Shown here: positions 1,104 to 23,559 of the stretch, in pieces | Layout: every line of letters starts with the position of its first letter | Position numbering within the stretch: position 1 is the first letter of the stretch | Virus record (IMG/VR): IMGVR_UViG_3300044491_000021 | Span: 1-24,410 of that record | DNA: 24,410 nucleotides | From: a virus | Strand: one strand, 5' to 3' | The notes under the pieces: model-generated | Told to the model about the DNA's origin: nothing | The model's input: only the letters and a program-made list of their open reading frames with translations | Database searches by the model: none | Program-made: the position numbers and the translations under genes

Positions 1104-1312
1104 TGTGGCGGATATGGGCAAAAGCATTAGGTGAAAAGTATGGACGCTCAGACAGAGAGGCTGATATTATTGCTGGCATACGCACCCTTATTTTTATTTC
1201 TTACTTGGTTACCAACCTTTTTATTATTAGTGGAGTGATTAGACACTGGAATGACGTACCAACTAAAAGACTACCTGTACAGCATCAATCAATCGAAAAA
1301 GAATATTCTTGA
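1103..1312 (+). CDS. Small single-pass membrane protein, 69 aa
   Basis: Starts one base inside the stop of the 46-aa ORF (TAATG). Residues 1-21 are charged and amphipathic. Residues about 22-46 form one clear hydrophobic segment (IIAGIRTLIFISYLVTNLFI), followed by a polar C-terminus. The last 62 nt overlap the beginning of gp62 in another frame, an unusually long overlap for this phage; the membrane segment ends before the overlap starts, so the shared part is probably tail-like. It could tether a replication component to the membrane, but nothing in the sequence proves this. Confidence 0.7.
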   Translation: MWRIWAKALGEKYGRSDREADIIAGIRTLIFISYLVTNLFIISGVIRHWNDVPTKRLPVQHQSIEKEYS

Positions 1313-1637
1313 TGGCGACGTTGATGCTGAGCGAGGTTATCCTCCTTACATTGTTAATAGGTGCCTCAGTTCTTTTACGGATACTATCTTGTATGTCAAT
1401 GAGATGAACAAGAATCCTAATCTTCCTAAGAAGATGCAATATGACTTTTTACTAAATAGTGTGAAACCAAGGAAAAGATTTTCTCCTTGGGCACGTAAAG
1501 ATTCTATTGATTATCTTGAAGTAGTCAAAGAGTATTATGGTTATAATGACGATAAAGCACTCCAAGCACTCAGGGTTCTCACCAAGGATCAATTAGATCA
1601 TATTACAAAAGCATTGAATAAAGGTGGAAGAAAATGA
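1251..1637 (+). CDS. 62: Clamp-loader small subunit gp62
   Basis: In T4, gp62 joins four gp44 ATPase subunits to load the gp45 sliding clamp for gp43 polymerase. Here it has 128 residues, shorter than T4 gp62 (187) and in line with a short cyanophage form. The call rests on features such as the YPPYIVNRCLS and KKMQYDFLLNSVKPRKRFSPW segments and on its place directly before regA, the T4 order 44-62-regA-43. The gp44 and gp45 genes are not in the window; the dam gene and two small ORFs lie upstream instead. Its stop overlaps the regA start as ATGA. Confidence 0.88.
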   Translation: MTYQLKDYLYSINQSKKNILDGDVDAERGYPPYIVNRCLSSFTDTILYVNEMNKNPNLPKKMQYDFLLNSVKPRKRFSPWARKDSIDYLEVVKEYYGYNDDKALQALRVLTKDQLDHITKALNKGGRK

Positions 1638-2059
1638 GTGTTGATACTGAGATCCAGTGGAAGCAAACTGATATGGTTGAAGTGGTTCTTGGTGAACCTG
1701 ATGACTTCCTAAAAGTAAGAGAAACTTTAACTCGTATTGGTGTAGCGTCTCGTAAAGAAAAAAAGATTTACCAGTCCTGTCACATCTTACATAAACAAGG
1801 TAAGTATTATATTGTACACTTCAAAGAGTTATTTGCTCTTGATGGTAAAAATACTAACTTGTCTTTGAATGATGTACAGCGTCGTAATCGTATCGTACAA
1901 CTTCTTAGTGATTGGGGACTAATCACAGTTGTAAATGTAGATAAGATTGCTGATCTTGCACCACTCAATCAAATTAAAGTTCTTTCATTCAAAGAAAAGA
2001 ATGATTGGACACTAGAATCCAAGTATAATATTGGTCGAAAGAAGACAGCAGTTGAGTAA
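1634..2059 (+). CDS. regA: Translational repressor RegA
   Basis: RegA binds the ribosome-binding region of phage early mRNAs and blocks initiation, and in T4 also controls its own mRNA. This 141-residue protein is slightly longer than T4 RegA (122). It fits the family by position (62-regA-43 order) and by its pattern: an N-terminal beta segment with VEVVLGEPDDFLKVRETLTRIGVAS, a lysine-rich loop, the QSCHILHKQGKYYIVHFKELF core and a later RNRIVQLLSDWGLI helix. It starts at the ATGA overlap with gp62 and is therefore likely translationally coupled. A hairpin follows directly after its stop. Confidence 0.9.
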   Translation: MSVDTEIQWKQTDMVEVVLGEPDDFLKVRETLTRIGVASRKEKKIYQSCHILHKQGKYYIVHFKELFALDGKNTNLSLNDVQRRNRIVQLLSDWGLITVVNVDKIADLAPLNQIKVLSFKEKNDWTLESKYNIGRKKTAVE

Positions 2060-2165: not shown

Positions 2166-2570
2166 ATGACTAATATTACTTGGGAACATTATACCCCTTA
2201 TTCAATTGGATTCAATGAAACATTCAGCAGACTTGATGCTCTCGCAGGAGGTGGAACAAATTACCCACCTTACAATGTTGTCGATGGAGGTAGTGGTAGA
2301 ACACTACTGGAAGTCGCTCTTGCTGGATTTTCAGGAGGAGATATTGAAGTCGAGACGGAACGAAATGTCTTAACTGTATCTGCTAGGAAAGCACCAGCAG
2401 ATAAAGAACGTAAGTATTCTCACAAAGGAATTTCATATCGAACATTCTCTCGTAACTGGCAGATGGCAGATGATGTGGAAGTTGAAGACGTTAAGTTTGT
2501 TGACGGTCTCCTTACAATCACTCTTGTCAAACACTTGCCAGAGAAACAGAAGAGAAAAAAATGGTTCTAA
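2166..2570 (+). CDS. Small heat-shock protein, Hsp20 / alpha-crystallin family
   Basis: An ATP-independent holdase chaperone that keeps unfolding proteins soluble; Hsp20 genes are widespread in cyanomyoviruses. The 134-residue protein has an N-terminal arm with YPPYNVV, then an alpha-crystallin domain at about 47-125: LLEVALAGFSGGDIEVE, NVLTVSAR, the GISYRTFSRNWQMADDVEVE segment and DGLLTITLVK. The C-terminus is short and basic (KQKRKKWF) and lacks a clear IxI oligomerisation motif. The gene stands alone between a hairpin and a strong terminator, so it is probably its own transcription unit. Its role might be to help fold replication or capsid proteins; that is inference. Confidence 0.92.
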   Translation: MTNITWEHYTPYSIGFNETFSRLDALAGGGTNYPPYNVVDGGSGRTLLEVALAGFSGGDIEVETERNVLTVSARKAPADKERKYSHKGISYRTFSRNWQMADDVEVEDVKFVDGLLTITLVKHLPEKQKRKKWF

Positions 2571-2579
2571 ATACAAGTG

Positions 2580-2605
2580 AAGGGGACTTGACGGTCCCCT
2601 TTTTT
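2580..2605 (+). terminator. Intrinsic terminator after hsp20
   Basis: AAGGGGAC (2580-2587) pairs perfectly with GTCCCCTT (2594-2601) around a 6-nt loop TTGACG, followed by a T-run to 2605. This is a textbook Rho-independent terminator. The loop is also the -35 element of the next promoter. Confidence 0.92.
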
Positions 2606-2616
2606 GGTGCTAAAAT
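2588..2616 (+). promoter_or_regulatory. Sigma70-type early promoter overlapping the terminator
   Basis: TTGACG (2588-2593) and TAAAAT (2611-2616) are separated by exactly 17 bases, each matching the consensus at 5 of 6 positions. Transcription would start near 2623, giving a leader of about 15 nt before the ATG at 2638. It would drive the block from 2638 into gp43, UvsX and gp41. The -35 hexamer is exactly the terminator loop. Confidence 0.75.
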
Positions 2617-2637
2617 AAAATCAAACTCAAAATAATT

Positions 2638-2970
2638 ATGGCAGTATCGGTAGTCACATTTAAGACTGGTGATCGCATCATTACTGAGTTAAAAGAGATC
2701 TTTGATAGTGAAGGTGAAGACAAACGTGGTGTTTGCCTTCTTATGGAAGATCCTTACATTCTCAATCTTGATGGTGCAACACCACAATATCTAACTGAGC
2801 AGCATGGTATGGAATACCAAGTGCGCTTCAGTAAGTGGAATCCTTATTCTCCAGATTGGCAGTTTAAGATTCCATATGACTGTGTTATGACAATTAGCAC
2901 ACCAGAACCAGGACTGGAAAATGCTTGGAAACAAAAACTTACAGAAAAAAAGGAACTAGAAAATGAGTGA
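2638..2970 (+). CDS. Conserved phage protein, first of three related tandem ORFs
   Basis: 110 residues, function unknown. Visible pattern: an opening strand with a turn (VVTFKTGDRIITEL), an acidic loop, a second strand ending in EDPYILNL, then FSKWNPYSPDWQFKIPYDCVMTI and a C-terminal helix ending WKQKL. The same layout appears in the next ORF and, weakly, in the third. The pattern of short strands with a GDRI/GERV turn suggests a small beta-barrel (Sm- or SH3-like), but this is only inference. It is the first gene after the early promoter and shows no strong Shine-Dalgarno. It overlaps the next gene by 8 nt. Confidence 0.8.
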   Translation: MAVSVVTFKTGDRIITELKEIFDSEGEDKRGVCLLMEDPYILNLDGATPQYLTEQHGMEYQVRFSKWNPYSPDWQFKIPYDCVMTISTPEPGLENAWKQKLTEKKELENE

Positions 2971-3349
2971 ACCAAATTATAATCATAACGTTCGTGTAGT
3001 AACTCTTGTTACTGGTGAGCGTGTGCTGTGTCTTTTTGGTGCAGTTCGTGATGTTAATGATGATACCAAGATTAGTGCGTATCGTATGATTTATCCTTTT
3101 ATTCTTACTTTGGGTCAACCAAATGAGGATGGTACAACTCCTATTAACTATACTAGGTTTAATCCGTTCAGTCCCTTTGAGGAACATGTTATTACTGGAG
3201 ATCATATCATTAGTGCAGTCCTTCCTGATGATTCTATTTTCCAAAACTACCGCACTAAACTACTAGAGGCAGGACTTAAGGACGAACAAATTTACTATCC
3301 TGAGGAGTCTAATGGAAATAACAGCGAACCTGATCAATCTGCAGAATGA
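2963..3349 (+). CDS. Conserved phage protein, second of three related tandem ORFs
   Basis: 128 residues. It aligns by eye with the preceding protein: VVTLVTGERVLCL matches VVTFKTGDRIITEL, YPFILTL matches DPYILNL, FNPFSPFEEHVITGDHIISAV matches WNPYSPDWQFKIPYDCVMTI, and NYRTKL matches AWKQKL. The C-terminal 25 residues are a polar, acidic extension (about EESNGNNSEPDQSAE). It starts inside the end of the first ORF and overlaps the third by 38 nt, so the three are probably translated together. Function unknown; position just before DNA polymerase suggests expression with the replisome. Confidence 0.8.
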   Translation: MSEPNYNHNVRVVTLVTGERVLCLFGAVRDVNDDTKISAYRMIYPFILTLGQPNEDGTTPINYTRFNPFSPFEEHVITGDHIISAVLPDDSIFQNYRTKLLEAGLKDEQIYYPEESNGNNSEPDQSAE

Positions 3350-3569
3350 ATGGATCATTGCTCAAGTAGAACCTGCTGAAGGAGACACTTTGCCAGGTGA
3401 CCCTGATGTGTGGATGGTAGAACCATATGTTGTAGACTGTGAAGGTCAGATCACTCCATGGGCACCACATGCTGATGAGCGTGAGTTTAACGTCAGGTCC
3501 TCAGACCTGACTGTTGTGACCAACCCTAGCAAGCAACTGCTTGCTCGTTATATTGAATGTCTTGAATGA
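3312..3569 (+). CDS. Conserved phage protein, third and most diverged of the tandem ORFs
   Basis: 85 residues. It keeps the order of features of the two preceding proteins: an opening strand (NEWIIAQVEPAEGD), a DPDVWMVEPYVVD strand comparable with EDPYIL, a proline/tryptophan turn (TPWAPHADEREF) in the place of WNPYSP/FNPFSP, then SSDLTVVTNPS and a C-terminal helix (QLLARYIECL). The similarity is structural rather than strong identity. Its stop overlaps the gp43 start as ATGA, so it is directly coupled to DNA polymerase. Function unknown. Confidence 0.75.
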   Translation: MEITANLINLQNEWIIAQVEPAEGDTLPGDPDVWMVEPYVVDCEGQITPWAPHADEREFNVRSSDLTVVTNPSKQLLARYIECLE

Positions 3570-6055
3570 AGTTTTACACTAGTGTTGAGCAAGCAGGTAA
3601 CCGTCTGCTTGTACGTGGTTATGAGAACGGCAATCGCTACAGCGTTAGGGTTCCTTTTAACCCTACGCTGTATTTGCCTACAAAGAACTATTCAGAATGG
3701 CGTACACTAGAAGGTGATTGTGTAGAACCTCATAAGTTTGGATCTATCACGGAGGCACGAGACTTCGTGAAGCAGTACAAAGAAGTTGATGACTTTGAGA
3801 TCTATGGAAACTCACGGTTTCTGTATCAGTACATCGCTGAGCAACACCCTGAAGAAGAACTTAAGTTCGACAGCAGCAAGATACGTGTGTTTACTATTGA
3901 CATTGAGACCGCAGCAGAGAATGGATTTCCAGATATTGAGTCTGCCGATCAGGAGATTCTTGCTATCAGTATCAAGGACTCCTTCACGGGTCGTATAACG
4001 GTGTTTGGTGCCCGTGCGTTCAACAACCAGGACGCTATGGTTGATTACATGCACTTCAGGTCTGAAGAGACTATGCTTGGTGCATTCCTTGAATACTGGC
4101 AGCAAAATTACCCCGATGTAATCACTGGATGGAACGTGCAGTTGTTCGACATGCCGTACATTCACAACCGTGTTAATCGCATTCTTGGTGAAAAGTATGT
4201 GAAACTCTTGTCTCCTTGGAAACTAGTATCACAAAGAAAGATCTACATTAAAGGTCGTGAGCAATGTACAATTGATACTCTTGGTATCTCTCAACTTGAC
4301 TATCTTGAACTGTATAAGAAGTTTACTTATACGAACCAAGAGAGTTACCGTCTTGATCACATCTGTTCTGTTGAACTGAACGAGAAGAAACTAGATCACT
4401 CTGAGTTCGATACGTTTAAAGAGTTCTATGAGAACGACTGGCAGAAGTTCATTGAGTACAACATCCATGATGTTCGCCTGGTGGACAAACTGGATGACAA
4501 GATGAAACTGATTGAACTGGCATACACCATGGCATATGATGCCAAGGTAAATTATGAAGATGTGTTTAGTCAGGTTCGCATGTGGGATAATTATATTTAC
4601 TGCGAGCTCTTGAAGAGGAAGATTGCTATTCCTCCTAAGAAAGAAGCGACCAAGACAGAGAAGTATGCGGGTGCTTATGTCAAAGAACCGAAACCAGGAT
4701 TCTATGATTGGGTTGTGTCTTTTGATCTCAACAGTCTGTATCCTCATCTTATTATGCAGTACAACATCTCTCCAGAGACGTTACAAGACACCAGACATCC
4801 ATCAGTCACCGTTGATAAGATACTTGAGAAGCAAGTAGAGATTGATGGTGAGTACGCTGTGTGTGCTAACGGAGCACAGTATTGCAAAGACAAGCATGGT
4901 TTTCTTCCTCAGATGATGAAGAAGATGTATGACTCTCGTGTCATTTTCAAGAAGAAAATGATTGCTGCCAAGAAAGAATATGAGAAGACACCTACTGTCG
5001 AACTCATGAAAGAGATTGCGAGATGTAACAATATTCAGATGGCAAAGAAGATCTCTTTGAACTCTGCTTATGGTGCTATCGGTAACGAACACTTTAGGTA
5101 CTATCGTCTTGCTAACGCTGAGGCAATCACTTTGTCTGGTCAGGTCTCTATCCGTTGGATTGAGAACCGTATGAACGGATACCTAAATAAACTACTCTCT
5201 ACTGAGGAGGTGGATTATGTTATCGCAAGCGATACCGACTCAATCTATCTTAATCTTGGACCTCTTGTTGATAAATTTTTTAGTGCTAAGTCTAGCGACA
5301 AAGCAACAATTGTGGGGATACTTGACAAGATCTGCGAAGAAAAACTGGAACCTTTTATCGAGAGTTCATATCAAGAACTTGCGAACTACGTTTCGGCATA
5401 CGATCAAAAGATGCAAATGAAGCGTGAGAATATCGCTGATCGTGGTATCTGGACTGCGAAGAAGCGTTACATTCTCAACGTTTGGGACAGTGAAGGTGTT
5501 AGATACAAGGAACCCAAGATGAAGATTATGGGTCTGGAGACGGCGAGGTCTTCTACTCCAGCTTATTTCAGAGACAAATTGTATGCAGCGTTTAAGATTA
5601 TTATCGGCAAGACAAATGATGAACTTATCAGTTTTATCAATGATGTCCGAACAGAAACGAGAGAGCGACCTTACGAAGAAGTCGCCTTCCCCAGAGGATG
5701 TAACAACCTGGCAAAGTATCGCCACCCAACTGAGATTTACCAGAAAGGAACACCCATTGCAGTAAGGGGTGCTCTTCTTTATAATCACTATGTAAAGAAG
5801 TATAAGATTGAGAACAAGCATCCTCTCATTCAAGAGGGTGAGAAAATTAAGTTCATGTATCTCAAGACACCAAATCCAATTCACGAGAACACTATTAGTT
5901 TCTTTGGTGAGTTACCGAAGGAGTTTGGTATCGAGAAGTATGTGGATTATCAAACACAATTTGAAAAGTCATTCCTCGAACCGTTGAAAAACGTGCTACA
6001 ATGTATTGGTTGGACCCACGAGAAGACCATTACAATTTCGAGTTTCTTTTCATGA
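3566..6055 (+). CDS. 43: Family B DNA polymerase gp43
   Basis: Replicative polymerase with 3'-5' proofreading. It has 829 residues, a little shorter than T4 gp43 (898). Exonuclease motif I is FTIDIETA with D112 and E114; exonuclease II is GWNVQLFD with N190 and D195; an exonuclease III-like YNIHDVRLVD follows. Polymerase motif A is DLNSLYP (387-393), motif B is KISLNSAYG (495-503) and motif C is SDTDS with D556 and D558. All catalytic residues are present. The C-terminal tail (FEKSFLEPLKNVL...) is where T4 gp43 binds the gp45 clamp. It starts at an ATGA overlap with the preceding ORF. No intein, intron or homing-endonuclease insertion is visible. Confidence 0.98.
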   Translation: MKFYTSVEQAGNRLLVRGYENGNRYSVRVPFNPTLYLPTKNYSEWRTLEGDCVEPHKFGSITEARDFVKQYKEVDDFEIYGNSRFLYQYIAEQHPEEELKFDSSKIRVFTIDIETAAENGFPDIESADQEILAISIKDSFTGRITVFGARAFNNQDAMVDYMHFRSEETMLGAFLEYWQQNYPDVITGWNVQLFDMPYIHNRVNRILGEKYVKLLSPWKLVSQRKIYIKGREQCTIDTLGISQLDYLELYKKFTYTNQESYRLDHICSVELNEKKLDHSEFDTFKEFYENDWQKFIEYNIHDVRLVDKLDDKMKLIELAYTMAYDAKVNYEDVFSQVRMWDNYIYCELLKRKIAIPPKKEATKTEKYAGAYVKEPKPGFYDWVVSFDLNSLYPHLIMQYNISPETLQDTRHPSVTVDKILEKQVEIDGEYAVCANGAQYCKDKHGFLPQMMKKMYDSRVIFKKKMIAAKKEYEKTPTVELMKEIARCNNIQMAKKISLNSAYGAIGNEHFRYYRLANAEAITLSGQVSIRWIENRMNGYLNKLLSTEEVDYVIASDTDSIYLNLGPLVDKFFSAKSSDKATIVGILDKICEEKLEPFIESSYQELANYVSAYDQKMQMKRENIADRGIWTAKKRYILNVWDSEGVRYKEPKMKIMGLETARSSTPAYFRDKLYAAFKIIIGKTNDELISFINDVRTETRERPYEEVAFPRGCNNLAKYRHPTEIYQKGTPIAVRGALLYNHYVKKYKIENKHPLIQEGEKIKFMYLKTPNPIHENTISFFGELPKEFGIEKYVDYQTQFEKSFLEPLKNVLQCIGWTHEKTITISSFFS

Positions 6056-6228
6056 GTAAGAAAATCTTTGTAGTCACATGGACTAATCATGTCGTAGGTC
6101 AAGTAGGATCTGAGGACATTAAGTGCTTTGAAGACTACGATACCGCTTTGGCATTTGCCAAACTCATGCGGAACAGTTATAATTATGTCAACTTTTATGA
6201 GGAACGAGTAGATCAATGGGATTCTTAG
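6052..6228 (+). CDS. Small protein between gp43 and UvsX, 58 aa, function unknown
   Basis: The frame is open from 6001, but the start is placed at ATG 6052, which forms an ATGA overlap with the gp43 stop like most genes here; the upstream extension would lie wholly within gp43 coding sequence. The peptide [17 protein letters not shown] begins with a beta strand, then [17 protein letters not shown] forms a helix and the C-terminus is acidic and aromatic. No known motif. It overlaps uvsX by 13 nt and its end carries the GAGGAA that serves as the uvsX ribosome-binding site. Confidence 0.7.
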
Positions 6229-7232
6229 ACACCGTAATTAAAGAAAGTGGAAACGAGTTTGCTGGTCTGGTTAGCGAAGGAATTGCTGCTGGCGACATTA
6301 CTGATTATGTTGATACTGGCAGTTATATCGTTAACGCCTTGGTTAGTGGTTCGTTGTTTGGAGGATTGCCTTCCAACAAAGTTACTGCCTTGGCAGGAGA
6401 ATCGAGCACGGGCAAGACTTTTTTTGCTCTCAGCGTCGTTCGTAATTTCCTTGATGCTAATCCTACAGGTGGCGTCATTTATTTTGAGACTGAATCCGCC
6501 ATTTCCCGTGACATGATTGAGTCTCGTGGTATCGATTCGTCACGCATGATTATCATGCCTGTAGCTACTATTGAAGAGTTCAGAACTCAAGCATGTAGGA
6601 TCCTTGATAAGTACCTCAAGGAACCTAAGGACGAGCGTGTGCCTATGATGTTTGTGCTAGACTCTCTTGGTATGCTTTCAACCACCAAGGAGATGCAGGA
6701 CGTTGCTAACGATAAGCAGGTCAGGGACATGACTAAGAGTCAATTGATTAAGGGTGCCTTCCGTGTTTTGACGTTGAAACTCGGACAAGCACAAGTGCCT
6801 ATGATCGTGACCAACCATACATATGATGTGATCGGTTCTTATGTCCCTACAAAAGAGATGGGAGGTGGTACGGGTCTGAAGTATGCTGCTTCTACTATCA
6901 TCTACCTTAGCAAGTCTAAGGAACGTGACAGTAAGAAAGAAGTTATTGGTAACATTATCAAGTGTGAGGCAAAGAAATCACGTCTAACTATTGAGGGTTC
7001 TAAAGTTGCAACACGCCTATTTTTTGACGAGCGGGGACTTGACAAGTATTACGGCTTACTGGAACTGGGTATTGAGTACGGAGTCTTCGGGAAGAACGGT
7101 AATCGGGTTCTTATTGGGGAATCTTCCGTTTATCCTTCTGCTGTACTTTCTGATCCCGAAAAATATTTCACCCCCGAAGTGATGGAACAACTCGAAGAGG
7201 CAGCACGTAAAGAATTCTCCTATGGCAACTGA
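6216..7232 (+). CDS. uvsX: RecA-like recombinase UvsX
   Basis: Forms filaments on single-stranded DNA and drives strand exchange, which in T4 starts recombination-dependent replication and repair. It has 338 residues, a little shorter than T4 UvsX (391). Walker A is GESSTGKT (61-68), preceded by [10 protein letters not shown]; the catalytic glutamate region is FETESA (90-95); Walker B is MMFVLD (144-149) followed by SLGMLST. An L2-like glycine-rich loop ([15 protein letters not shown]) is present, and the C-terminus is acidic. Translation starts 6 nt after GAGGAA-type sequence in the preceding ORF. Its end overlaps gp41 by 11 nt, so recombinase and helicase are co-expressed. Confidence 0.96.
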
Positions 7233-8610
7233 GCGTATTGAACAAACTATCTTGCGTAACCTTCTCTTCACTGAGGAGTATTACCGCAAGGTAGTTCCCT
7301 TTCTAAAAGCAGATTATTTCCAAGAATATCATGAAAAAATTGTCTTTGAGGAGATTGCTGACTTCGCTTCTAAGTACGACAAGATTCCTACTCAGGAAGT
7401 CCTTTCGATTAACTTACAAAATCGTAATGATCTTACTGACGACACGTACAAAGATTCGATACAGACAGTCCAAGGACTTACCGACGAGTGGGTCGATTAC
7501 GAATGGCTCCTCGATGCCACAGAAAAGTGGTGTCAAGACAGAGCTATATACCTCGCCCTTATGCGGTCGATCAAGATCGCAGATGGAGGCGATAAGAAGA
7601 TATCAAAGGATGCGATACCTAGCATTCTACAAGAAGCACTAGCAGTTTCCTTTGATGAACATATTGGACACAGTTACACAGAGCAAGCAGAAGAACGCTA
7701 TGATTTCTACCACCGTAAAGAAGAAAAAGTCCCATTTGATTTGGAGAAGTTTAACTTCATTACCAAAGGTGGTCTCTCTAACAAGACTCTCAATGTCGCT
7801 CTTGCTGGAACGGGCGTCGGGAAGTCTCTATTCATGTGCCATTGCGCTGGTGCCGCGCTCACACAGGGGTACAACGTACTCTACATTACATGTGAAATGG
7901 CAGAGGAAAAGATTGCTGAACGAATTGACGCAAACCTTCTGAACGTAAGTGTCAAAGACATTGTAGATCTGCCCCAGGTCATCTTTACCAGTAAGGTAAA
8001 TGAGATCGCTAGGAAAACCCAGGGTAAACTTATCATCAAAGAGTATCCAACTGCATCAGCACATGCTGGTCATTTCAAGGCACTGCTCAGCGATCTCAAA
8101 TTGAAGAAAGATTTCAAACCTGATATCATCTTCATTGATTATTTAAATATTTGTGCAAGTGTGAGGTACAAAGGTGCGATCGTCAACAGTTATACGTATG
8201 TCAAGGCTATTGCTGAGGAACTTAGGGGTCTTGCTGTGGAGGTTGGGGTTCCTATTGTCTCAGCTACTCAAACTACTCGCAGTGGTTATGGCAATAGTGA
8301 TCCTGACCTTACCGATACTTCTGAGTCTTTTGGTTTGCCTGCCACTGCTGATTTTATGTTCGCTCTCATCAGCACTGAGGAGCTTGAACAACAAGGTCGC
8401 ATCATGGTCAAACAACTTAAAAACAGATACTCAGATCTCGTTACCTCACGAAAATTCATGGTGGGAATTGACAGATCCAAAATGAAGCTGTATGATGTAG
8501 CGGACGATGCTTCCGCTATCAGCATCGATGCAGAGGACCCTGGTGAGGAGTTCTCACAATTTGCAGACACACAAAACCGTTTATCTAAATTTGCTGAGTG
8601 GAATGTATGA
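7222..8610 (+). CDS. 41: Replicative DNA helicase gp41 (DnaB family)
   Basis: Hexameric 5'-3' helicase that unwinds the lagging-strand template and works with primase gp61. It has 462 residues, close to T4 gp41 (475). Walker A is GTGVGKS (196-202); the catalytic glutamate lies in YITCEMAEE (221-229); Walker B is [10 protein letters not shown] (300-309); the sensor region is [12 protein letters not shown]. The N-terminal 150 residues are helical as expected for the DnaB collar. The partner primase is about 8 kb away at 16622, separated by late-type genes. It overlaps uvsX at its start and the MazG gene (ATGA) at its end. Confidence 0.96.
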
Positions 8611-21281: not shown

Positions 21282-21713
21282 GTGGAAGAGATTTACCCAA
21301 ACCCTTGGAAATATATGGGCACCGTGTTTGATGGGAGCCTTATTGGGGACAACTGGGGTTTTGTTTATAAGATTACCAATCAGTCCAACGAACGACAGTA
21401 CATTGGGCGAAAGTATTTTTGGCAAAAAAGGAAGCCAAGGGGGGGTAAGCGCAGAGTCACTTCAGAAAGTGATTGGAAGCGGTATTATGGGTCATGTCCC
21501 GAACTCAAAGACGACATCAAACTCTTTGGGAAAGATTGTTTCACCAGAGAAATCCTGTCAATGCACAGGACACCTGGAAGGGTCAACTACGAAGAGACCC
21601 GACAGCTTTTTCTTCACGACGTTCTGACGGAGGCACTTGACAATGGAACGCCTGCGTACTATAATTCAAACATCCTCGGACGCTATTACAGGAAAGACTA
21701 CTTTAATGCTTAA
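21282..21713 (+). CDS. GIY-YIG nuclease-like protein
   Basis: 143 residues (with a GTG start at 21282; an ATG at 21315 would remove 11 residues). GFVY at 26-29 and YIG at 40-42 are about 10 residues apart, as in the GIY-YIG fold, followed by R43 of the catalytic GRK. A conserved-looking E104 in NYEETRQLF could bind the metal. The rest, including the segments KRRVTSESDWKRYYGSCPELK and NSNILGRYYRKDYF, resembles nuclease-like proteins seen in cyanophages. It may be a homing-type or resolving endonuclease, standing alone without a DNA-binding domain. Another reading frame (21274-21627) overlaps it and is not favoured. It overlaps the next gene by 8 nt. Confidence 0.82.
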   Translation: MEEIYPNPWKYMGTVFDGSLIGDNWGFVYKITNQSNERQYIGRKYFWQKRKPRGGKRRVTSESDWKRYYGSCPELKDDIKLFGKDCFTREILSMHRTPGRVNYEETRQLFLHDVLTEALDNGTPAYYNSNILGRYYRKDYFNA

Positions 21714-22290
21714 GATTTTGATTGCCTCTACTACCCTCTCTGTAGGGTTTCTAGGACCACAAATTCCTAATGCAACGGAGGCACCTGAGATGCCTGAGGT
21801 CCAACCTCTTCCTACGATACAGTATAATATTACATGGAAGTGCCCTGATTGTACACCTAATGAACAGTATGTTTTAGAAGAACTCCAGAAGCATACCAAA
21901 ATTACTGATCGTAATGCTCTTGCTACCATCATGGGTAACATTAAGCAGGAGAGTAAGTTTATCCCTAACATCTGTGAGGGTGGTTCTCGTATCTCTTACA
22001 CTGAATGTAAGGTTGGTGGGTATGGTTTGATCCAATGGACTTCTATCGGTCGCTACAAGGGTCTTGGTAACTTCTGTGCTAAATATGTGTGCGATCCCAG
22101 TAGTCTGGAAGGTCAGACTCGCTGGATGATTAACGAACCTATCTTCCAACGTGTCCTTCCTGTATTTGAAGGTGGGGGACAAAGTATAACTTATTACATG
22201 AAACCTGCTTACCGTTGGTTAGGGTGGGGTATCAAAGGTAATCGTGAAATCTACGCTTACGATTACCATAAAAAACTGGTGTGGTCTTGA
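21706..22290 (+). CDS. Secreted lysozyme-like peptidoglycan hydrolase
   Basis: 194 residues from ATG 21706, with AGGA about 10 bases upstream; the frame is open further back inside the nuclease gene. The N-terminus (MLKILIASTTLSVGFLGPQ) looks like a short signal peptide or signal anchor, with a possible cleavage after NATEA. The catalytic region at about 69-118 has ALATIMGNIKQESKF with E82 as candidate acid, and GYGLIQWTSIGR, the pattern of phage-tail lysozyme-type domains. Six or more cysteines (46, 49, 90, 101, 124, 129) suggest disulfides, as expected for an exported protein. It may be the endolysin or a tail-associated lysin; the host wall is Gram-negative type. Confidence 0.82.
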   Translation: MLKILIASTTLSVGFLGPQIPNATEAPEMPEVQPLPTIQYNITWKCPDCTPNEQYVLEELQKHTKITDRNALATIMGNIKQESKFIPNICEGGSRISYTECKVGGYGLIQWTSIGRYKGLGNFCAKYVCDPSSLEGQTRWMINEPIFQRVLPVFEGGGQSITYYMKPAYRWLGWGIKGNREIYAYDYHKKLVWS

Positions 22291-22319
22291 CACCACACCA
22301 CGGATAGTGTAAACTATCC
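22277..22319 (+). terminator. Two adjacent hairpins after the lysozyme-like gene
   Basis: First: TGGTGTGGT (22277-22285) pairs with ACCACACCA (22292-22300), nine perfect pairs around loop CTTGAC. Second: GGATAGT (22302-22308) pairs with ACTATCC (22313-22319) around GTAA, a GNRA-type tetraloop. The first starts inside the coding end (stop TGA 22288-22290). Neither has a U-tract, so termination is uncertain; the pair may also stabilise or process the RNA before tRNA-Arg. Confidence 0.65.
22287..22315 (+). promoter_or_regulatory. Sigma70-type promoter for the tRNA region, -35 in a hairpin loop
   Basis: TTGACA (22287-22292), 17 bases, TAAACT (22310-22315, 4 of 6). Transcription would start around 22322, just before tRNA-Arg at 22326. 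The -35 falls mainly in the loop of the first hairpin and the -10 within the second. Confidence 0.55.
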
Positions 22320-22325
22320 AAGTGA

Positions 22326-22398
22326 GGGCACGTAGCATAATGGATAATGCATCAACCTTCTAAGTTGTCGATTGCTGGTTCGAGTCCAGCCGTGCCTG
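22326..22398 (+). tRNA. tRNA-Arg (UCU)
   Basis: Cloverleaf folds by eye: acceptor GGGCACG with CGTGCCT (one G-U), D stem GCAT/ATGC, anticodon loop CTTCTAA with TCT at 22359-22361, T stem GCTGG/CCAGC with TTCGAGT. The anticodon stem has one T-T mismatch. 73 nt, no encoded CCA. It reads AGA codons. Confidence 0.92.
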
Positions 22399-23320: not shown

Positions 23321-23559
23321 TGATTAATCTGGACGCTCGTTATGAAAGTTACCTTCATACCAACAAATGTTTTACTATTAACGGTAGTTGCGAGCATGTA
23401 ATAGCATATGGGTGGACGGATAATGGTTCGACTATTGATGGGTATTATGTCTTGACAAAAAACTATAAACTCTTGTATAATCTTGAGGAACAGTGCATCG
23501 CACTGAAAGAAAGGAAGGTCAATCCGATTGGCGACGGAACCGCTCTTGAAAAGCGTTGA
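23320..23559 (+). CDS. Hypothetical protein, 79 aa, 3' end overlaps tRNA-Ser
   Basis: Starts one base inside the previous stop, so it is likely translationally coupled. Sequence is soluble and Tyr/Asn-rich (MINLDARYESYLHTNKCFTI, EHVIAYGWTDNGST, YYVLTKNYKLLYNLEEQ); two Cys, no known motif. The last 47 nt, encoding about KVNPIGDGTALEKR and the TGA, lie inside tRNA-Ser, and a consensus promoter is embedded in the coding region. It is either a real gene whose end has merged with the tRNA, or a frame left open by chance; the coupling favours the former. The basic/acidic C-terminal tail encoded in the tRNA is probably not functionally constrained as protein. Confidence 0.6.
   Translation: MINLDARYESYLHTNKCFTINGSCEHVIAYGWTDNGSTIDGYYVLTKNYKLLYNLEEQCIALKERKVNPIGDGTALEKR
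23452..23481 (+). promoter_or_regulatory. Consensus sigma70 promoter for tRNA-Ser, tRNA-Pro and talC
   Basis: TTGACA (23452-23457) and TATAAT (23476-23481) match the consensus at all 12 positions, with an 18-base spacer. Transcription would start near 23488, about 25 bases before tRNA-Ser. It lies inside the 79-aa reading frame. No terminator with a U-run stands before talC, so read-through to the transaldolase is likely. Confidence 0.88.

Follow-up and report, generated by a model that had tools for sequence, protein, structure and literature searches.

A predicted intrinsic terminator with a proposed -35 box in its hairpin loop, between hsp20 and the replication operon of a T4-like cyanophage

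The short gap between hsp20 and the replication genes of a T4-like cyanophage raises the question of whether the same bases can end one transcription unit and start the next. The DNA analysed here (the window), an IMG/VR virus record of 24.4 kb, matches T4-like cyanophages across most of its length: Sf-CH1b aligns with 86% of it at 84% identity, and S-WAM2, S-RSM4, ACG-2014j and ACG-2014h are the next matches. The fragment belongs to a T4-like cyanophage of the Kyanoviridae, close to Sf-CH1b, S-WAM2 and S-RSM4. Between the hsp20 stop codon and the ATG at 2638 lies a 37-base element (2580-2616) with the sequence AAGGGGAC-TTGACG-GTCCCCTT-TTTT-GG-TGC-TAAAAT (Table 1). As originally predicted, a perfect 8-bp stem (stem-loop 2580-2601) encloses exactly TTGACG, 17 nucleotides before TAAAAT; six T occupy 2600-2605.

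Table 1. Features of the hsp20/replication junction and of the second hairpin (positions are those of the window)
Feature	Position	Strand	Basis
gp62 clamp loader	1251-1637	+	PHROG match (phrog_225 and phrog_242 cover gp62 and regA)
regA	1634-2059	+	PHROG match (phrog_225 and phrog_242 cover gp62 and regA)
hsp20, small heat-shock gene, upstream transcription unit	2166-2570	+	PHROG 432 (Hsp20), E 2.3e-47
hsp20 stop codon TAA	2568-2570	+	sequence
Stem, left arm AAGGGGAC	2580-2587	+	sequence; covariation in 20 junctions
Hairpin loop TTGACG, proposed -35 box	2588-2593	+	TTGAC invariant in 20 distinct junctions
Stem, right arm GTCCCCTT	2594-2601	+	sequence; covariation
T-run, U-tract of the predicted terminator, inside the 17-nt promoter spacer	2600-2605	+	sequence
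Extended -10, TG-C-TAAAAT (TGCTAAAAT)	2608-2616 (TG 2608-2609; TAAAAT 2611-2616)	+	spacer of 17
Predicted transcription start	2622-2624 (about 2623)	+	promoter geometry, 6-8 nt past the -10
Next ATG after the element	2638	+	sequence
Downstream operon	2638-8610	+	PHROGs: two PHROG 431 genes, a PHROG 483 gene, gp43, uvsX, helicase
gp43 DNA polymerase	3566-6055	+	PHROGs
uvsX	6216-7232	+	PHROGs
Replicative helicase	7222-8610	+	PHROGs
Second hairpin, TGGTGTGGT-CTTGAC-ACCACACCA, 9-bp stem	22277-22300	+	sequence
Promoter-like TTGACA-17-TAAACT at the second hairpin, before tRNA-Arg (22326-22398)		+	sequence

The element contains the parts of an intrinsic terminator as well as those of a promoter. RNA folding gives -13.7 kcal/mol (z -3.5) for the hairpin at 2580-2601, and 2580-2605 has the typical order of a stable GC-rich RNA hairpin and then TTTTTT on the transcribed strand. 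TTGACG-17-TGCTAAAAT corresponds to a promoter of the sigma-70/SigA type, its conserved boxes lying within the 16-18 nt distance of that type, and TTGACG-17-TAAAAT with its TG reached 10 of 12 matches in a promoter scan of the window. Taken alone, plain scans of the window for promoters and terminators are uninformative, being at or near chance level, and promoter-scan scores in particular are no better than chance (30 sites versus 29.2 in shuffles); the case must therefore rest on comparison. The joint feature (stem of at least 7 bp, TTGAC loop, T-tail and -10) is found once in the window and never in window shuffles. The window also has two perfect 12/12 sites of the sigma-70 type: TTGACA-17-TATAAT at 21637-21665, in the overlap of two ORFs and near the end of ORF 21282-21713, and TTGACA-18-TATAAT at 23452-23481, before a tRNA-Ser.

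At the homologous junction of the window and nine relatives, TTGACG, the spacer of 17, the T-run and the TG-extended -10 are all kept, and the stems differ yet stay complementary (GGGGAC/GTCCCC, GGGTGC/GCACCC, AGGCAC/GTGCCT, GGGTAC/GTACCC). Covariation was analysed in hsp20/gp43 junctions from reference phages and IMG/VR, 20 distinct sequences in all. TTGAC is invariant in all of them (with G as sixth loop base in 18), as are the T columns 22-26, the TG and positions one and two of the -10. Across these junctions 96.9% of the stem pair cells are paired, and sliding the pairing partner by a single column lowers pairing to 56-63%. Cells with changes on both sides number 19, a count inflated by kinship, versus a shuffled mean of 4.7, and none of 500 shuffles was as high. 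The stem is kept by compensatory change, as in intrinsic terminators, and the terminator parts and promoter parts of the element are conserved together. S-PM2 and Syn1 are more distant, with an Hsp20 identity of only 43-46%, and an unrelated hairpin occupies the same junction; at its apex is a weaker -35-like hexamer (TTGCTC, 3/6; TTGCCC, 4/6) that stands 17 nt before TATACT.

The scan that had been proposed together with the original prediction, TTGAC-loop stems versus shuffled controls in cyanomyoviruses, gave a clear excess. Ten complete cyanomyovirus genomes have 28 stems of at least 7 bp with a TTGAC loop (7.75 expected), 12 that also have a -10 (0.575 expected) and 9 with a T-tail in addition (0.075 expected; largest shuffle set 1). 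Five of these nine strict cases are the homologous hsp20 junction and hence not independent; each genome has only 0-2 strict cases and three of the ten (Syn9, S-PM2 and Syn1) have none. T-tailed hairpins with a TTGAC loop occur ten times in the ten genomes, and all but one have a -10 at 16-18 nt.

To leave the left arm free, IMG/VR was scanned with the pattern TTGAC...TTTTTT...TGNYANACT; the matches listed are a non-random sample. Among the matches listed, a stem of at least 6 bp surrounds TTGAC in 49 of 114 unique sites, versus 7.3 expected (maximum 15) when left flanks are exchanged among these 114 sites. By a loose classifier, the stem is present in 48 of the 87 listed sites that are T4-cyanophage-like versus 1 of the 27 others, and the listed hairpin sites precede about 26 downstream-gene families. 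The same pattern in bacterial genomes has a stem in 8 of 115 cases (2.9 expected). When only TTTTTTATGNTATAMT was searched, with neither -35 nor stem specified, T-tailed hairpins were present at 40 of the 119 sites listed (0.26 in shuffled flanks); for 19 of the 40, the best -35 agreed with TTGACA at four or more of the six positions and was never more than 1.5 nt from the loop centre. An extended -10 follows 19 of 109 strong cyanomyovirus terminators versus 3.4% of random positions, and in 15 of these 19 a -35 match of at least 4/6 lies no further than 2 nt from the loop centre. For RB49, T4 and KVP40 the count is 2 of 92 strong terminators, which is background level. The coincidence of -35 and loop is partly forced, as a -10 directly after the T-run puts the -35 at the apex by geometry alone.

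The terminator-promoter arrangement thus recurs at many cyanomyovirus junctions, far beyond chance. It had been predicted to be a recurrent compact design in this genome: the recurrence holds across cyanomyovirus junctions, but the 24-kb fragment itself contains one true case. In other cyanophage-like contigs, going by our reading of the translations, a fused element follows an apparent major capsid gene or regA, and these look like the ends of other operons.

The second hairpin, at 22277-22300, had been put forward as another instance of the design. It exists and has TTGAC in its loop, but it has no U-tract on the plus strand (a T-run is present on the minus strand) and its stem is not conserved, and we reject it as a second terminator-promoter copy. 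Its left arm consists of the last codons of ORF 21637-22290, and the loop contains the TGA stop. S-RSM4 and S-H9-1 keep the promoter boxes, but their stems lose pairs without compensation. The sequence favours a promoter with a hairpin over a terminator-promoter fusion. The tRNA-Arg begins about 10 nt after the end of the -10 of TTGACA-17-TAAACT, which leaves just a few bases between the predicted start and the tRNA. A palindrome, GGATAGTGTAAACTATCC (GGATAGT...ACTATCC, 22302-22319), lies over this -10 and is conserved in S-RSM4 and S-H9-1 except for one base. Stems with a TTGACC loop and no -10 are also found directly before tRNA-like sequence in S-RSM4 (29549), S-WAM2 (160789), ACG-2014i (155838), S-MbCM7 (155249) and Sf-CH1b (169820).

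Late-like boxes are found near hairpins too. The hsp20 stop codon and the following ATA form CTAAATA (2567-2573), which is near the cyanophage late box NATAAATA and kept in nine close relatives; S-PM2 and Syn1 have AATAAATA. A late start 6 nt past this box would coincide with the base of the hairpin. In the ten genomes, a late-like box (TATAAATA or CTAAATA type) stands at most 24 nt after 24 of 109 strong T-tailed hairpins versus 0.5% of random positions, and fusions of terminator and late promoter seem to be at least as common there as the early type.

Very probably, then, 2580-2616 is an intrinsic terminator fused with an early promoter of the host sigma-70/SigA type. A polymerase arriving from the clamp loader-regA-hsp20 side would form the GC-rich RNA hairpin and the U-tract and be released at about 2601-2606. 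With no polymerase passing, holoenzyme would take TTGACG, the loop of the RNA, as -35 box and TGCTAAAAT as extended -10, and transcription of the gp43/uvsX/helicase operon would start at about 2623. The same bases would be used twice in the same direction: the loop is the -35 box and the U-tract is the spacer. The predicted start lies downstream of the hairpin, so the promoter would escape attenuation by its own terminator, with transcripts that lack the hairpin. On one DNA molecule the two uses would be mutually exclusive, as an elongating or terminating polymerase would cover the promoter. The benefit may be compact insulation of adjacent operons. The fusion is near the shortest possible, with a -10 after the T-run setting the -35 at the apex, which supports compaction as the basic benefit. 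The host group, the cyanobacteria, to our knowledge lacks Rho. The original claim that one 37-nt element stops hsp20 and starts the replication operon thus stands for the parts, which are present and co-conserved; termination and initiation, like the sigma factor, the timing and the benefit of compaction, are what we infer from them. A counterpoint to the fusion is that TTGACG and TAAAAT are imperfect boxes, and the T-rich spacer may weaken the promoter. A DNA cruciform that exposes the -35 box was considered and set aside: the T-tail and the direction fit RNA instead, and sigma binds the -35 as duplex DNA.

Two readings would add to the fusion rather than replace it. In the window the stem begins 9 nt past the hsp20 stop codon (6-15 nt in relatives), and at distances of about 9 nt the tR2 terminator was almost fully repressed by ribosomes in E. 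coli (PMC4824070). Termination may therefore be weak while hsp20 is translated. We tentatively entertain a conditional terminator, in which ribosomes that finish hsp20 mask the hairpin; with the same reserve, termination and promoter clearance would hinge on hsp20 translation. In E. coli tR2 is repressed at the short end of the 6-15 nt range, but sequence dependence is strong at such distances between stop codon and terminator (PMC4824070), and transcription and translation are not known to be coupled in infected marine cyanobacteria.

The second addition, which we regard as rather doubtful, is a hand-off by recycling termination: the overlap would pass a polymerase that has just terminated to the overlapping promoter. 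It is equally doubtful that transcription on the hsp20 side would in this way be coupled to that of the replication genes. After intrinsic termination, E. coli RNA polymerase often stays bound to its template and starts again from the nearest promoter (PMC6978380, PMC6978322, PMC11347151), and the predicted release site falls inside the promoter; recycling in E. coli, however, spans roughly 1000 bp (PMC11347151), which makes an overlap unnecessary. That the overlap was selected as a hand-off switch, with upstream transcription setting the firing of the replication operon and hsp20 translation setting termination via masking, appears unlikely. If true, cyanophages would be using the fusion as a recurrent regulatory unit, and compaction would not be its only role.

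The remaining readings would replace the fusion. The element could be a terminator only, with TTGACG as a favoured loop similar to UUCG and an incidental -10. Among the loop pentamers of 109 strong T-tailed hairpins only those of UUCG loops are indeed more frequent than TTGAC, and in the RNA fold a U-G pair narrows TTGACG to a small UGAC loop. However, nine of ten TTGAC-loop terminators have a -10 at 16-18 nt, TG and -10 are conserved at fixed spacing, and several UUCG-loop terminators precede late-like boxes instead; we rejected the favoured loop on the nine T-tailed cases with a -10 and consider this reading very improbable. Slightly less probable still is a promoter only, with the inverted repeat as the operator of a protein that binds DNA over the -35 box and no RNA hairpin. 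Inverted repeats over -35 boxes are classical operators, and the promoter at 22277 also has dyads around its -35 and -10. A protein site would keep its bases, though, whereas here the arms (GGGGAC, GGGTGC, AGGCAC, GGGTAC) vary with compensation and only the loop is fixed, and a U-tract directly follows the hairpin; the covarying arms led us to reject the operator. Chance or the simple shared ancestry of a few phages can hardly be the explanation: the hsp20 junction is homologous in five of the genomes scanned, but the hairpins precede about 26 downstream-gene families among the matches listed, their stems differ, and shuffles and permutations speak against it.

Cyanomyoviruses are among the most abundant marine phages, and the signature of the fused element (stem, TTGAC loop, T-run and TG-extended -10) is a searchable marker that could locate operon ends and early promoters in their genomes. 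According to a cyanophage review, sigma-70-like motifs were not found upstream of early genes of S-RSM4 (PMC2984593); the fused element is present in S-RSM4. The natural set of one loop with many stems may also serve as a test bed for the use of polymerase recycling after termination by phages.

Each half of the element resembles a known system. Like an intrinsic terminator it has a GC-rich stem, a short loop and a U-tract just past a stop codon on the gene strand, but its loop is a conserved -35 box. Like an extended -10 sigma-70 promoter it has TG-N-TANANT, a 17-nt spacer and TTGACG, but the -35 is embedded in a predicted terminator and the spacer is the U-tract. In the literature searched, with incomplete journal coverage, we came across no account of a terminator loop that contains a -35 box. 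Bacterial terminators near promoters share an adjacency that could allow reinitiation (PMC11347151), but the cyanophage terminator and promoter overlap base for base, and the bacterial scan had only 8 stems in 115 sites.

The closest comparison is with the PeSL cassettes of T4-like phages, reportedly described by Arbiol in 2010 and Comeau in 2014. PeSLs are 'promoter early stem loops', to which gene shuffling in T4-like phages is ascribed (PMC4503421); they recur between genes, and their stem-loop is described as a terminator joined to an early sigma-70-type promoter (PMC4503421, PMC3950731). PMC4503421, a 2015 study of S-PM2, cites the 2014 PeSL paper with its title on composite promoter-terminator motifs, judges PeSL density in S-PM2 to be far lower than in other T4-likes and places a promoter and two stem-loops at separate sites. 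Like PeSLs, the element joins an early promoter and a stem-loop between genes of a T4-like phage, and it recurs at many junctions, judged by the downstream-gene families among the IMG/VR matches listed. The geometry differs. RB49 has about 17 strong early promoters with perfect hairpins that lie in the spacer between -35 and -10 or enclose the -10 and have no T-tails; the distance from loop centre to -35 centre is 11-12 nt in the spacer type and 20-22 nt in the type around the -10. The cyanophage loop is instead centred on the -35, with the T-tail in the spacer, and T-tailed TTGAC-loop hairpins with a -10 are absent from RB49, T4 and KVP40. The differing stems between loci argue against shuffling cassettes that are identical in sequence, as far as the arms of the hairpins can tell. 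Compared with PeSLs by way of the RB49 sequence and the published descriptions, the element looks like a PeSL-like cyanophage variant, a cassette of promoter and terminator, rather than a PeSL proper.
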